Shown here: piece by piece, positions 12,528-16,480 of the stretch
How positions within the stretch are numbered: position 1 is the stretch's first letter
How the letters are laid out: each line of letters starts with the position of its first letter
From: a virus
IMG/VR virus record: IMGVR_UViG_3300033997_000266
Location: 1-23,586 of that record
Reading direction: 5' to 3' (one strand)
DNA length: 23,586 nt
Notes under the pieces: generated by a model
What the model was told of the DNA's origin: nothing
Databases searched by the model: none
What the model saw: only the letters and a program-made list of their open reading frames with translations
Translations under genes and position numbers: made by a program

Positions 12528-12582
12528 GACCCAATCTCCTGAAAAGTCAGGCGATTAAAAAAACCACCAGAGGACCAACCTC

Positions 12583-12972
12583 ATGGGAAGAGTAACGCTC
12601 CCCGATCATGAAAATATGAGCACGCGCTCCCCGCTGCGGGTGCGCGGCACCCCGGCCCAGCGCCAGGTGTGGCAAGAAGTCGGCGCCGAGTGTGGCATGA
12701 CTGAAACCGCATTTGCGCGCGCTTCATTGCTGATCTTGCTCAAGGCCATATCTCAGCACGAACCCCAGATCCTGGCGAGGGCCGTCAAACGGGCCAATCG
12801 AAGCCTGCTCGACCAGGGATTTCCGCCCGTCACCGTCGAGGAGATCCTGGATGGCTCCGGCCTGCCCGAGCGCGGCCTGCTGCAGTTCACCCAGGAAGAC
12901 GAGGCCGTCTACAACGAGGAGCGCCCGCTGCGCCCCCTGCAAAAACTCATCAACTTCGTTCTCGGGAGGTAA
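12583..12972 (+). CDS. hypothetical early protein, possible DNA-binding helix domain
   Basis: 129 residues. The start at 12583 is supported by AGAGGACC ten bases upstream; a second ATG at 12616 is possible. Residues about 12-55 (SPLRVRGTPAQRQVWQEVGAECGMTETAFARASLLILLK) have the strand-helix-helix order of ribbon-helix-helix proteins, although I cannot confirm the family. The rest is helical and ends PLQKLINFVLGR. It lies between the antirepressor and the small genes before the replication protein, where lambda-like phages encode cII. No clear CII signature is present. Confidence 0.65.
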   Translation: MGRVTLPDHENMSTRSPLRVRGTPAQRQVWQEVGAECGMTETAFARASLLILLKAISQHEPQILARAVKRANRSLLDQGFPPVTVEEILDGSGLPERGLLQFTQEDEAVYNEERPLRPLQKLINFVLGR

Positions 12973-12976
12973 CCCC

Positions 12977-13195
12977 ATGACCATGCAACTCCGTCCGCCG
13001 CGCCCGGCATCCCAGCACGTCAGCGATCGCGACAACATCATCCTGAAGTCGGTCATGCATGAGCTGGCCCTAGCCCTCGACGAGCCGCTGATCTCGACCG
13101 CGCATGCCGCCGGTACCGACCGGCAGGCCCTGCGCCTGGCCCGCGAGCTTGAGGCTCGCACCCTTGAACGCGCCGAGAACCAGCCCAGCGCATAA
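12977..13195 (+). CDS. small helical hypothetical protein
   Basis: 72 residues starting MTMQLRPPRPASQHVSDRDN. ATG at 12977 follows GGGAGG closely after the previous stop, so the longer overlapping frame is rejected. The body (LKSVMHELALALDEPLISTAHAAGTDRQALRLARELEARTLERAEN) is strongly helical and amphipathic with no cysteines or membrane segment. It is probably co-translated with the preceding gene. Function unknown. Confidence 0.6.
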   Translation: MTMQLRPPRPASQHVSDRDNIILKSVMHELALALDEPLISTAHAAGTDRQALRLARELEARTLERAENQPSA

Positions 13196-13245
13196 CCCTC
13201 TTTGGCCCGTCTCACCACCGGGCAGCAACACAACAGGACCCAGCA

Positions 13246-13401
13246 ATGACCAATTCAACCATGGCCCATGGGGGCCACCCCTTGCTGAACGACCTCAACC
13301 ACTGCCCACTGTGCGGCAGTGATCTGCAGTCCGGCAGCAATGACCGCGCTTATGAGTGCCCCGCCTGTGAGTACACCGAGCAGGAGGTGGCTCATGGTTA
13401 A
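13246..13401 (+). CDS. 51-residue zinc-ribbon microprotein
   Basis: ATG at 13246 follows ACAGGACCCAGCA. The protein has CPLCG at residues 20-24 and CPAC at 38-41, a four-cysteine zinc ribbon (Cys20, 23, 38, 41) with the intervening loop SDLQSGSNDRAYE. Such microproteins (LNHCPLCGSDL...YECPACEYTE) occur widely in phage early regions. The tail overlaps the start of the next gene at 13394 by eight bases. A nucleic-acid or protein-adaptor role is possible. Confidence 0.65.
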   Translation: MTNSTMAHGGHPLLNDLNHCPLCGSDLQSGSNDRAYECPACEYTEQEVAHG

Positions 13402-13525
13402 CCCCTCATCCGTTGCCATCTGGGAGCTCTATGAGCTCAAGAAGCGTGAATTGCAAGCAATGGGGTTATCCCAGCGTGAGTACGAGCTGGCCGTGCGCCG
13501 ATTGGCTGATGAATTGGAGGTGTGA
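13394..13525 (+). CDS. 43-residue helical phage protein
   Basis: MVNPSSVAIWELYELKKREL...LSQREYELAVRRLADELEV. ATG at 13394 has GGAGG about seven bases upstream inside the preceding gene, giving an eight-base overlap. The peptide is almost entirely amphipathic helix. It ends one base before the replication gene's ATG at 13527, so it is probably translated in tandem with it. It may be a partner of the replication protein; nothing in the sequence proves that. Confidence 0.6.
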   Translation: MVNPSSVAIWELYELKKRELQAMGLSQREYELAVRRLADELEV

Positions 13526-13526
13526 G

Positions 13527-14279
13527 ATGAGCATGGCTCTTATGGTTAAGGCGATGTGCATCAAGGTAGGTAACCCGCTTCGCAAACTGGTGCTGATCAA
13601 GCTGGCAGACAATGCCAGCGACAACGGTGAATGCTGGCCATCACATCAGCATATTGCCGATCAGTGTGAGATCTCCCGGCGTTCAGTGATCAATCACATT
13701 GAGGCTCTGTGTGAATCCGGATTGCTGAAAAAAGAGGGTCGATTAGGGCCTAATGGCAAGAAGTCGAACATGTACGTTTTGAGTCTTGATGGTGCAGGAG
13801 CTGCACATCCGAATGTGCAGGAGATTCACCAGGGTGGTGCAGGAGCTGCACTAGGGGGTGGTGCAGGAGCTGCACATAGAATCAGTCACTCTTTAGAACC
13901 AGTCATTGAACCAGTAATACCCCCTGTATCCCCCAAGGGGGAAAAATCAAAGCGCGGGACGCGTTTGCCTGATGACTGGAAACTTCCCAAAGCCTGGGGT
14001 GAGTGGGCAATGACCGAGCTTGGCCTGTTGCGAAACCAGATCCTGCTGGAGGCGGAAACTTTCGCCGACTACTGGCAATCACTGCCAGGCGCCAAGGCGG
14101 TGAAGCTGGACTGGGAGAAGACCTGGCGAAACTGGGTCCGTCGCTCCTGCACCAGCCCGTCGCGAAAACCTGCTAACCGTAAACCGGAGCCGCCGATGCC
14201 ACGGGCCTTTGGCGAGGACGCTGCCCCGAGCGGCAAGCCATCGGCTCCGGCCTTCCGTCCACGCGCTTTCGGGGAGTGA
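13527..14279 (+). CDS. winged-helix phage replication protein (lambda O / helicase-loader type)
   Basis: 250 residues from ATG at 13527, supported by GGAGG upstream and tight spacing to the previous stop. The N-terminal winged helix (about residues 16-88: RKLVLIKLADNASDNGECWPSHQHIADQCEISRRSVINHIEALCESGLLKKEGR) is the typical phage replication-initiator helix-turn-helix domain. The middle (about 88-117) is an Ala/Gly repeat encoded by iterons. The C-terminal part (about 145-215: LPDDWKLPKAWGEWAMTELGL...FADYWQSLPGAKAVKLDWEKTWRNWVRRS) is the DnaT-like tail common in such proteins. It should bind the internal origin and deliver the DnaB helicase encoded next. A PRAFGE motif occurs twice at the end. 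Confidence 0.85.
   Translation: MSMALMVKAMCIKVGNPLRKLVLIKLADNASDNGECWPSHQHIADQCEISRRSVINHIEALCESGLLKKEGRLGPNGKKSNMYVLSLDGAGAAHPNVQEIHQGGAGAALGGGAGAAHRISHSLEPVIEPVIPPVSPKGEKSKRGTRLPDDWKLPKAWGEWAMTELGLLRNQILLEAETFADYWQSLPGAKAVKLDWEKTWRNWVRRSCTSPSRKPANRKPEPPMPRAFGEDAAPSGKPSAPAFRPRAFGE
13792..13875 (+). repeat. four iterons within the replication gene, probable origin
   Basis: The 15-base dyad GTGCAG-GAG-CTGCAC occurs perfectly at 13792-13806, 13837-13851 and 13861-13875, and in degenerate form (GTGCAGGAGATTCAC) at 13815-13829. Starts are 22-24 bases apart, close to two helical turns. Sequence after the last copy (13876-13920) looks richer in A and T. The arrangement parallels lambda ori, where four iterons lie inside gene O next to an AT-rich segment. 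Confidence 0.75.
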
Positions 14280-14283
14280 TGCC

Positions 14284-15627
14284 ATGAGAAACCAAAACGT
14301 TAGCGCCATCGCCCCGCAACAGGCCGAACACCACCTGAGCGAGCGGCTCTACAGCCACGATGCGGAGTCCTCCGTGCTGGGCTGTGTGCTGCTCGATGCC
14401 AGCCTGATGGCCGAGTGCCGCCTGACCCAGGAGTCGTTCAACTCGCAGGTCCATCGCCGGATCTTTGCCGCCTGTCTGGCGCTGCACCTGAGCCGGACGC
14501 CCATCGATCTCATCACCCTGCAGGGGGAGCTGGAGCGCCGCAACGAGCTGGACATGATCGGCGGGTTCGCCTACCTGGTCGAGATCGCCAAGAACACCCC
14601 AAGCTCGGCGAACTTCAGCGCCTACCAGGAGATCGTGCAGTCCCGTTACCAGTTGCGTAAGACCTACCTGATGCTGCGTGAGGCCCTGCCGCGGCTGGAG
14701 CGCGGCGAGAACGTCTCTGACGAGCTGGCATCCTCGCTGATGCGCATCGCTCAGCCCAGTGGCAAGTACGAGCACGGTCCGGAGGAGATTGCCAGGGCGG
14801 CAGTCGATGCCATCGAGCGCTACCAGATGGGGTTTGAGCAGGGGGTCACCTACGGGATCCCCGATCTGGATGCGGCCGCCAACGGAGCGCATAACTCGGA
14901 CCTGGTGATCATCGCCGCCCGCCCGGCCATGGGGAAAACCGCGCTGCTGCTGAACATGATCCTGGGCGCTCTGGCGGTGCCCGCCGGCCATTCGGTGGGG
15001 TTTATCTCAGCCGAGATGCCGGTCGCGCAGATTGGCACCCGGATCTGCTGCATGGATGGCCGCGTGAACAGCCACAAGATGCGCACCGGCCAGTTGGATG
15101 ACGAGGACTGGGCGCGGCTGACTGCCGCCACCGGGCGCCTGATTGGCTCCAAGCTGCGGGTGTTCGACAAGTCCGGGGTGAGCATTGGCGAGATTGAGCG
15201 GCTCGCCCGGCGCTGGAAGCACGAGCACGGCCTGACGGCGCTCTACGTGGATTACCTGCAGCGCATCAAGGGGGTGAACCCCAACGCCGAGCGCTGGCAG
15301 CAGGTGGGGGACAACGTCATGCGGCTCAAGGAGCTGGCCCGCGAGCTGGATATCCCGGTGATCTGCCTGGCCCAGGTGAACCGGGCCTGCGAAGAACGTG
15401 GCAACAAGCGGCCCGGCATGGGGGACATCGCCAACTCGTCCGAGGTCGAGAAGGAGGCCGACCAGATCATGGTGTTGTATCGGGATGAGGTCTACGACGA
15501 GAACAGCACCGACAAGGGGACCGCCGAGATCAACTACGTGAAGAATCGCCACGGCCCGACCGGGGTGGTGCGGGTGCGCTGGCAGGCGCCATTCATGCGG
15601 TTCTGCAACCTGAAGGAGGAATACTGA
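14284..15627 (+). CDS. dnaB: DnaB-family replicative helicase
   Basis: 447 residues from ATG at 14284, four bases after the previous stop. The N-terminal DnaB domain (about 15-120) has LYSHDAESSVLGCVLLDASL, followed by IDLITLQGELERRNELDMIGGFAYL. The RecA-like C-domain carries Walker A ARPAMGKT (residues 212-219), ISAEMPVAQIGTR, Walker B ALYVDYLQRI and the downstream ICLAQVNRACEERGNKRPGMGDIANSSEVEKEADQIMVLYRDEVY. It ends with the DnaB-type tail NRHGPTGVVRVRWQAPFMRF. The enzyme unwinds DNA 5' to 3' as a hexamer. Its pairing with the winged-helix origin protein forms a P22-like replication pair rather than a lambda O/P pair. Confidence 0.95.
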   Translation: MRNQNVSAIAPQQAEHHLSERLYSHDAESSVLGCVLLDASLMAECRLTQESFNSQVHRRIFAACLALHLSRTPIDLITLQGELERRNELDMIGGFAYLVEIAKNTPSSANFSAYQEIVQSRYQLRKTYLMLREALPRLERGENVSDELASSLMRIAQPSGKYEHGPEEIARAAVDAIERYQMGFEQGVTYGIPDLDAAANGAHNSDLVIIAARPAMGKTALLLNMILGALAVPAGHSVGFISAEMPVAQIGTRICCMDGRVNSHKMRTGQLDDEDWARLTAATGRLIGSKLRVFDKSGVSIGEIERLARRWKHEHGLTALYVDYLQRIKGVNPNAERWQQVGDNVMRLKELARELDIPVICLAQVNRACEERGNKRPGMGDIANSSEVEKEADQIMVLYRDEVYDENSTDKGTAEINYVKNRHGPTGVVRVRWQAPFMRFCNLKEEY

Positions 15628-15806
15628 TGGACGCTATTGCTGTGCCAGCAAGCCAGATCTTGCAAGAGTGGGAGGCTGAGATGCGCATCAGGGCGAAGTT
15701 GACACCACCAGAGTTGGCAGCTCGGGAGCGCCAGCAACGCATGGTCAGAGAACGGGAGATATCCCGTGCCTTTGGGCGGCGCTATCGCATCGAGGAGGAT
15801 TGCTGA
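15627..15806 (+). CDS. 59-residue charged helical protein after dnaB
   Basis: ATG at 15627 overlaps the helicase stop as TGATG, with AAGGAGG upstream in the end of dnaB. The sequence MDAIAVPASQILQEWEAEMR...PELAARERQQRMVREREISRAFGRRYRIEED is strongly charged and helical. The strong ribosome site and coupling support it as a real gene despite its size. It could interact with the helicase or act as a small regulatory partner; no motif decides. Confidence 0.6.
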   Translation: MDAIAVPASQILQEWEAEMRIRAKLTPPELAARERQQRMVREREISRAFGRRYRIEEDC

Positions 15807-15807
15807 C

Positions 15808-16110
15808 ATGTTCAATCCTGATGTGATCGTCGCGGTCGTGGCTGCGAAGTTCTGCCGGGTGGTGATCTATCCGGCCGTGCGGGGCTGGTGTGGGGAACGG
15901 ATGCAGCTCGAGGTGGCCGACGAGATCGCCGCGCTGGGCCACACCGATTGCCAGCGCGGGGCAGGGCATTGGCTGGTGCAGGGCGCGACGCCTGAGCGAG
16001 TGGCGGAGGAGGCTGCACGGCTGAGAGCCGCGCCAGTGCTGGTGTTGCGAGGCGGTGACTCATTTGGGGTTGTGGATAACTTCGAAGGGGAGGGCCTTGC
16101 CAACCAGTGA
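15808..16110 (+). CDS. hypothetical protein
   Basis: 100 residues from ATG at 15808 (MFNPDVIVAVVAAKFCRVVIYPAVRGWCGERM), with GGAGG about ten bases upstream. The first 25 residues are hydrophobic but interrupted by Lys and Arg, so a membrane segment is doubtful. The rest alternates strands and helices (LEVADEIAALGHTDCQRGAGHWLVQGATPERVAEEAARLRAAPVLVLRGG). No family is recognised. It ends the helicase cluster before a 76-base gap. Confidence 0.55.
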   Translation: MFNPDVIVAVVAAKFCRVVIYPAVRGWCGERMQLEVADEIAALGHTDCQRGAGHWLVQGATPERVAEEAARLRAAPVLVLRGGDSFGVVDNFEGEGLANQ

Positions 16111-16147
16111 CAATCGGTATATCGCGCCGTAACATGTTTCAGGCCGA

Positions 16148-16187
16148 ACCTAGACCACCCGGCTGTTTAACCAAAGGACCTAGACCA
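16148..16187 (+). repeat. direct repeat in the intergenic leader
   Basis: ACCTAGACCA occurs at 16148-16157 and again at 16178-16187, thirty bases apart, the second copy running into the ATG of the next gene with AAAGG before it. It is a variant of the recurring AGGACCCAGACC leader of this phage. The 76-base gap 16111-16186 holds no other clear element; no confident promoter is seen. Confidence 0.45.
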
Positions 16188-16480
16188 TGACCAAACCGCA
16201 TACCCGAGATCTCTCCATCGCGACCCAACTTGGCCGCGTGATTGCGATCATGAGCGACGGAAAAGCCCGTACCCTGCGCGACATCGAGCGCGAGTGCTGG
16301 AGCCGCTACGGCCACGCCGACACCCAGGCCGCCATCAGCGCCCGCCTGCGCGAAGTCTGCTGTCACGGCTGGGTAAAACACTCCAGCTGCCAGAACATCG
16401 ACGGCAAGCAGGTGTGGCACTACCACCTCTCGCCGTTCCCCACAGCGGAAGCCGTTGCGGCTAAGGCGGTGGCAGCATGA
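16187..16480 (+). CDS. small winged-helix-like protein
   Basis: 97 residues from ATG at 16187, preceded by AAAGGACCTAGACC. The region about 10-75 (TQLGRVIAIMSDGKARTLRDIERECWSRYGHADTQAAISARLREVCCHGWVKHSSCQNIDGKQVWHYHLS) has the helix-helix-wing order of small winged-helix proteins, with a RLRE recognition-like helix and a beta hairpin ending in HYHL. A DNA-binding role is inferred. It is coupled by ATGA to the next small gene. Confidence 0.65.
   Translation: MTKPHTRDLSIATQLGRVIAIMSDGKARTLRDIERECWSRYGHADTQAAISARLREVCCHGWVKHSSCQNIDGKQVWHYHLSPFPTAEAVAAKAVAA

Follow-up and report, generated by a model that had tools for sequence, protein, structure and literature searches.

The question raised by this locus is whether a short array of dyad repeats, set inside a winged-helix gene of a virus, marks the place where the virus begins to replicate its DNA. 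The analysis covered the whole window, the 23,586-base virus record IMGVR_UViG_3300033997_000266 (GC, 0.61). Aeromonas phage phiARM81mr is the best phage match of the record (63% covered, 91.6% identity), the nearest initiators among the best 80 of 177 genome loci sit in Aeromonas (83–85%), and the record appears to be a phage of Aeromonas type. Judged from comparison of the gene with its relatives, positions 13792–13917 are very probably a phage replication origin lying inside its own initiator gene. The features that bear on this reading are:

13527..14279, + strand: replication initiator gene, 250 aa, predicted to encode a winged helix, an origin-encoded linker and a DnaT-like C-terminal domain (HTH_36, PHROGs)
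13533..13781, + strand: winged-helix DNA-binding domain, aa 3–85 (AlphaFold2, HTH_36)
13677..13718, + strand: predicted recognition helix, aa 51–64 (AlphaFold2 model; columns 49, 50, 52, 53 and 55, at its start, covary with the half-site)
13792..13806, + strand: iteron 1, GTGCAGGAGCTGCAC, exact match
13815..13829, + strand: iteron 2, GTGCAGGAGATTCAC, two mismatches to GTGCAGNNNCTGCAC
13837..13851, + strand: iteron 3, GTGCAGGAGCTGCAC, exact match
13861..13875, + strand: iteron 4, GTGCAGGAGCTGCAC, exact match, 2 bases before the constant element
13878..13917, + strand: constant element, candidate DNA unwinding element (GAATCAGTCA at 13879, GAACCAGTCA at 13896 and GAACCAGTAA at 13908; spacing 17 and 12)
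13797..13961, + strand: predicted disordered linker, aa 91–145, largely origin-encoded (pLDDT below 50 for 91–125 and 127–145)
13989..14153, + strand: putative DnaT-like C-terminal helical domain, aa 155–209 (family profile; helices in the AlphaFold2 model)
14284..15627, + strand: replicative helicase DnaB gene (DnaB_C, 7.6e-77; Pfam)

The N-terminal domain of the initiator matches the Pfam profile HTH_36 (PF13730; 4.8e-11, 42.7 bits against a cut-off of 25), the top PHROGs matches of the protein are ‘replication initiation’ (1.3e-46 and 2.7e-45), and directly downstream there is no P-type helicase loader, the DnaB helicase gene standing there instead. Searches of Pfam at E up to 0.05 gave no match to Phage_rep_O (PF04492) or to RepA_N (PF06970), and the whole protein had no match in NCBIfam. 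Against the PDB, neither the whole protein (phmmer) nor a full-length family profile found a credible match, and a profile of the N-terminal domain found weak matches only.

The repeats lie inside the winged-helix gene at the positions given by the original prediction, as confirmed by pattern search, with spacings of 23, 22 and 24 bases, all four within the ORF at 13527–14279 and ~265–350 bases into the coding sequence. When up to one mismatch is allowed, the iteron pattern has no further occurrence in the 23,586 bases of the record. With up to three mismatches allowed there are 32 matches record-wide against a shuffle mean of 21.5, and 4 of 100 shuffles reach 32; this count is weak evidence, whereas the clustering of the iterons is strong evidence. 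Synonymous-codon shuffles of the ORF (n = 300) contained a mean of 0.07 GTGMA-N5-TKCAC sites and never more than one, against the four observed.

Conservation of the repeats was followed in a set of 79 distinct ORFs, consisting of the record, five phage records and the best 80 of 594 loci with duplicates removed; the loci were retrieved with six peptide patterns, one of which (HPNVQEIH) is in the linker and favors the iteron class of the record. A second, genome-found set (best 80 of 177) used protein patterns confined to the winged helix. Three to six GTGMA-N5-TKCAC sites are present in 78 of the 79 ORFs (loci: best 80 of 594), the lone exception being Vibrio phage L008, which has another half-site. 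Altogether the set contains 353 sites, of which 288 are read in one frame and 65 in another, with a spacing of 21–24 bases except for 15 gaps of 43 or 45, which is the length of two steps. Across all the DNA retrieved for these loci, one site is not within an initiator ORF, and synonymous shuffles of the proteins in the set leave ~0.1 sites per gene. In the genome-found genes, a dyad array stands at the same place in 80 of 80, 63 of them identified by regular expression and 17 by eye. The original prediction had named relatives that keep the amino acids and not the DNA repeats as the outcome that would speak against it; the opposite was found, with the repeats kept as DNA and in two frames.

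Two details of the array differ from the earlier description. The second iteron, previously called degenerate, has an ordinary form of the family, GTGCAGGAGATTCAC being second commonest (44 sites) after the ‘perfect’ form (64 sites) in the 79 ORFs. The description of each iteron as a full dyad stands as to the dyad, and the half-site is to be written GTGMA, as arms that are unlike (one GTGCA and one GTGAA) are common, occurring in 90 of the 155 sites of the cluster representatives. In a near-identical relative, L009, there are six iterons in a gene of 265 aa, owing to a frame-keeping 45-base repeat of two iterons; this duplication shows that arrays can grow without breaking the gene.

Initiators with other arrays were reached by a DNA scan for GAACCAGTCANNGAACC and by a protein-profile genome scan. 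Among the matches listed for the 17-base DNA scan, a winged helix is next to the element pattern in 61 of 80 loci; the other 19 are listed without a winged-helix match nearby, some being cut off and others unrelated chance matches. The other arrays are again dyads about a 5-nt center, including GGGCA/TGCCC, TAGGC with AAGCA, TGCCA/TGGCA, GTGTA/TACAC and TAGCA/TGACA, among others. All 13 of the phage loci picked for diversity (tblastn identities of about 37–67%) carry arrays by eye, such as GTGTC/GACAC in mEp554 and GTGAC/GTCAC in Vibrio phage D77; one of the diverse phage loci, L215, has only two clear iteron copies.

Beyond the iterons there is a second conserved component, absent from the earlier delimitation of the origin, which was right for the iterons at 13792–13875 and missed the element at 13878–13917. 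Two bases past the last iteron begins AGAAYCAGTCACTCTTTNGAACCAGTCA, in which a GAAYCAGTCA unit recurs, mostly at 17 and 12 bases, with the first copy in another frame than the later ones. For a codon test, 172 protein-found ORFs were reduced to 62 clusters, of which 54 were used and eight without a recognizable in-frame block were left out; loci found by the DNA scan for the element were kept out, since they had been chosen by it. Where the residue is the same, 399 of 406 codons in the element keep the codon, including the AGT and TCT serines and the AGA arginine, though p-values from this test overstate independence because of the common descent of the sequences. When the representatives are shuffled synonymously, the median distance to the element is 9.4 mismatches, against 2 observed. 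The element stays the same whatever the iteron class, the C-terminal domain or the host genus, and in the genome-found genes (best 80 of 177) it is present within six mismatches in 67 of 80 and within eight in 69 of 80; in the block-less genes that were inspected the spacing was altered, the units were altered or the sequence was cut short. Three loci (L262, L269 and L296) keep the units at spacings of 16, or of 12 and 14. The frame of the element is constant in all 156 ORFs with a recognizable block (of 158 ORFs; DNA-scan loci included), and thus part of its conservation could be at the level of the peptide (RTSHSxEPV).

The element has a GC of 0.38, against 0.61 for the record, and three other places in the record are less stable than the 60-base segment from 13870, which ranks as its fourth-lowest stability peak. 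Only 0.33% of the 60-base segments of the record are as unstable as the one from 13876.

Because the center of the last iteron stands at a constant offset from the element, no motif search is needed to read its arms, which could be compared with the predicted recognition helix. The comparison used 241 ORFs with an in-frame element within eight mismatches, reduced to 85 representatives (95% clusters), a set that includes loci chosen by the DNA scan for the element itself. A right arm of GTGCA or GTGAA goes with a (K/R/E)RS(V/A) helix in 44 of 46 representatives, TGCCA with an (S/T)AV(R/K)-type helix in 9 of 9, TGCTT with STVR in 8 of 9, GGGCA with RSTVK in 7 of 8, and GTGTA with (K/T)TAI in 2 of 2. 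Columns 52, 53, 49, 50 and 55 are in the top eight by corrected mutual information with the half-site, and the remaining three (21, 46 and 47) are less variable. There are exceptions: one KRSV protein has GGGCA as its last arm, two proteins with GTGCA have helices of another type, and the TGCTT, TGCCG, TGTCA and TGCTA classes have mixed helices. The class of the half-site thus appears to follow the residues at the start of the recognition helix, imperfectly. The clearest evidence that helix and iterons may change together comes from near-isogenic pairs: over positions 1–69, L101 and L105 are identical at 55 of 59 positions outside the helix and 3 of 10 inside it, differ in their iterons and almost agree in the element, and L266 and L265 are identical at 52 of 59 outside and 3 of 10 inside.

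In the AlphaFold2 model of the initiator (mean pLDDT, 67.8), ten-residue means are 76–96 over residues 1–90. The matches to this winged-helix fold are generic, with many transcription regulators and the DnaD N-terminal domain included; DnaD (2v79; Z, 8.7; rmsd, 4.4; 93 residues) is among many generic winged helices of equal Z. A Foldseek search placed 4pql at rank 8 and 4pt7 at rank 39, with no match having an E below 0.001. No lambda O structure is among the fold matches listed, from which no exclusion follows. The C-terminus of the record, searched alone against Pfam, had no match, and it is the family profile only that points to DnaT: a profile of the C-termini of eight relatives gave six PDB matches, all of them DnaT or primosomal protein 1 (best E, 0.0066), and Pfam DnaT (PF17948) is found in three of the eight profile members (best, 1.1e-5), the record’s own copy being without a match.

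Among 181 ORFs (DNA-scan loci included), the C-termini that follow the element fall into seven clusters by single linkage. GTGMA iterons pair with six of the seven clusters, and four of the seven include arm classes that clearly differ. The best explanation of these pairings is that iteron specificity and the C-terminal domain have been exchanged between phages with the element held constant.

The best functional evidence comes from synteny, since the initiator cassette stands where a related phage has a replication module of known type. The flanks at 12568–13389 and 15808–16428 of the record are 88–90% identical to phiARM81mr (KT898134.1), and between them, methylase, Phage_rep_O and Phage_lambda_P genes of that phage replace the initiator and DnaB genes (13390–15807 of the record). 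The phiARM81mr O protein matches PF04492 (1.3e-26), and its gene has internal repeats of its own. Relatives of the initiator are also present in 39 plasmid records, ten of them from Arsenophonus, and two of the 39 were examined. On a circular 43.5-kb Microbulbifer element the initiator stands together with DnaB, and the 56 features of the element, in a gene table that is incomplete with many hypothetical entries, include no second annotated initiator; it also encodes a small ‘PriB/PriC domain’ protein beside a portal gene and looks like a phage genome. Arsenophonus paNv_CH13 was considered as further support and dropped, as its record contains two RepL genes and another replication initiation protein; with three other annotated replication genes present it is no proof that the initiator gene suffices.

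Several other functions could produce dyads at this place. Repressors share the layout of a dimeric winged helix on dyads, and, with many transcription regulators among the fold matches, the sites might be operators at which the protein represses or road-blocks its own operon, the origin lying elsewhere. This is improbable given that the sites are ~265–350 bases inside coding sequence and at a fixed offset to a conserved element of low stability, and given the DnaT-like C-terminus, the helicase neighbor and the syntenic exchange with O and P; autoregulation in addition to origin function is possible. An incidental origin of the repeats, through protein-level selection for a low-complexity linker peptide, would agree with the predicted disorder of the linker and with the single frame of the element in 156 of 156 ORFs with the block, but the same 15-mer is read in two frames to give GAGAA and VQEIH peptides, shuffled genes retain ~0.1 sites where 78 of 79 ORFs (loci: best 80 of 594) have three to six, and the element both keeps its codons (399 of 406) and is far from its shuffles (median of 9.4 mismatches against 2), leaving such an origin of the repeats very improbable. 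Fainter still, and close to negligible, is the prospect that the dyads act as mRNA hairpins (GUGCAG-GAG-CUGCAC), for example in translation control; perfect copies could form 6-bp stems, as read from the sequence, yet the pairing of GTGCA and GTGAA arms in 90 of 155 sites disrupts the stem by placing C opposite U or A opposite G, and the half-sites covary with a DNA-binding helix.

A further alternative concerns the element only and accepts the origin. The GAAYCAGTCA units may be a duplex site for a host or phage assembly factor and not an unwinding element, and their constancy across iteron classes, C-termini and host genera is what would be expected of a shared partner; the composition, at a GC of 0.38, is not purely A+T. 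Set against this is the location of the element, which lies where an unwinding element is expected and at a low-stability point of a record with 61% GC; a duplex site is possible and, on balance, somewhat unlikely.

The proposal of an origin within the replication gene is supported, at the level of sequence, by repeats that are kept as DNA, by their covariation with the helix, by the exchange with O and P, by the DnaT-like profile and by the low-stability element. In such an origin, the winged-helix domain would bind each iteron as a dimer, with one subunit per GTGMA half-site, as the covariation strongly supports, and sites 21–24 bp apart would build a nucleoprotein complex. The complex may then destabilize the adjacent GAAYCAGTCA element, leading to its opening and to capture of a single strand, and the DnaT-like C-terminal domain could bind the single strand or the phage’s DnaB and help to place the helicase. 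The origin-encoded linker peptide would be a tether, leaving the DNA there free to serve as origin.

An in-gene iteron origin is of a known kind, because lambda O, the gp18 proteins of P22 and L, and the Rep proteins of pSK41 and pPR9 are precedents. The iterons of lambda O are dyads, and the specificity of the protein lies in its N-terminus. Accounts of lambda O, as excerpted, describe iterons inside the initiator gene, a dimeric initiator and an adjacent region that is easily melted (PMC7466680, PMC5043065). The record shares the layout of an initiator gene with internal iterons next to a low-stability region, and would work alike without being a member. The original prediction that the locus mirrors the lambda origin therefore holds for the layout, and descent is unsupported because the initiator has no Pfam match to the lambda O family. 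The two differ in that lambda has a P loader whereas the record has a DnaB gene and a DnaT-like C-terminus, and in that the melted region of lambda is, in the excerpted text, A+T-rich and strand-asymmetric in purines (PMC5043065), whereas the element of the record consists of repeats of a specific sequence. The iterons bound by lambda O, P22 gp18 and L gp18 appear to differ from one initiator to the next, each set lying within the gene of the protein concerned, and the two gp18 genes, as described in the excerpts of the same source, are like the record in having internal repeats and an adjoining DnaB-type helicase gene (gp12) (PMC8022706); the repeat of phage L given there, TGTCCAACGGA, differs from the iterons of the record.

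For the staphylococcal plasmids, the excerpted source describes pSK41 Rep as having a DnaD-like winged-helix N-terminus, Rep boxes inside rep, a dispensable linker and a genus-specific C-terminus, and pPR9 Rep as having an HTH_36 (pfam13730) N-terminus and a mini-replicon that replicates (PMC5703833). By this description pPR9 Rep shares its N-terminal family with the initiator of the record, and both plasmids differ from it in their host and in that the initiator has no RepA_N match. Initiators that bind specific repeats in an unwinding element are also on record in excerpts (PMC10797057, PMC5043065); RctB at ori2 of Vibrio cholerae and the initiators of the RK2 or F plasmids bind such repeats as single strand (PMC10797057). 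The ori2 motif (G/A)ATCA, as excerpted there, resembles AATCAGTCA, a 5-nt likeness that may be chance. A report on prophages of P. fluorescens Pf-5, considered as a prior description of the iterons, was set aside, the text in excerpt being concerned with a genomic-island origin.

The initiators SfV orf39 and ST64B sb42 have a winged helix 79% identical to that of the record over aa 1–91, the same iteron class and the same element; they differ in a C-terminal domain of another cluster, and no annotated DnaB gene lies within ~3 kb of them. The literature searched, which did not include the SfV genome paper, gave no description of their iterons. The iterons of the family, the helix-iteron series and the constant element were not found in the literature searched, which covered few subscription journals, and a repeated element that stays constant beside interchangeable iterons seems to be a new combination.

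The genome loci (best 80 of 177) bear names that we take to be gammaproteobacterial, with two exceptions. These are Thalassospira lohafexi and Martelella alba, alphaproteobacterial by record name (NCBI taxonomy). The evidence leaves us evenly divided on a broader proposal, that a single origin design is common to phages and prophages of many gammaproteobacterial genera and these two alphaproteobacterial-named records, comprising a constant, sequence-specific GAAYCAGTCA unwinding element read by a shared factor or a conserved part of the initiator, interchangeable iterons at a fixed offset with the half-site set by about five helix residues, and interchangeable C-termini that recruit the helicase. 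If true, origins would have been re-addressed in nature by the joint change of one short helix and its iterons, as the pairs L101/L105 and L266/L265 suggest. The family provides a large natural series in which mainly helix and iterons vary, making an initiator protein-DNA code readable and testable. The constant element gives a handle on the long-standing question of what initiators need of a sequence for strand opening besides A+T richness, and it would also aid the search for origins in prophages in which the initiator carries no annotation beyond ‘helix-turn-helix domain-containing protein’.

Several individual loci depart from the common arrangement. In L021 (IMGVR_UViG_2852464720_000002), the best segment is 100% identical to the record, the C-run after the constant element is one base shorter, and the frame breaks at 161 aa, through either a sequencing error or a real broken copy. 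The distant initiator L186 has a different iteron, GGTACGGAAATGGTTTCCG, ~370–400 bases into the ORF and followed by TTTGAACCAGTCACTGAACC, a match to the element that may be selection because the locus was found by that DNA pattern. Three distant Pseudomonas phages (L212, L214 and L217) have CCCGCAG...TGCACCC arrays and then GAACC every ~11–12 bases, and the GAACC repeats may be a differently spelled element of this kind. The one Arsenophonus plasmid record examined (L302/L304; NZ_CP123557.1), a 28-kb phage-plasmid, has RepL genes and genes for ParM-type segregation close to the initiator gene; its iterons are of the GTGAC type, and its GAAYCAGTCA units are spaced at 14 and 17.
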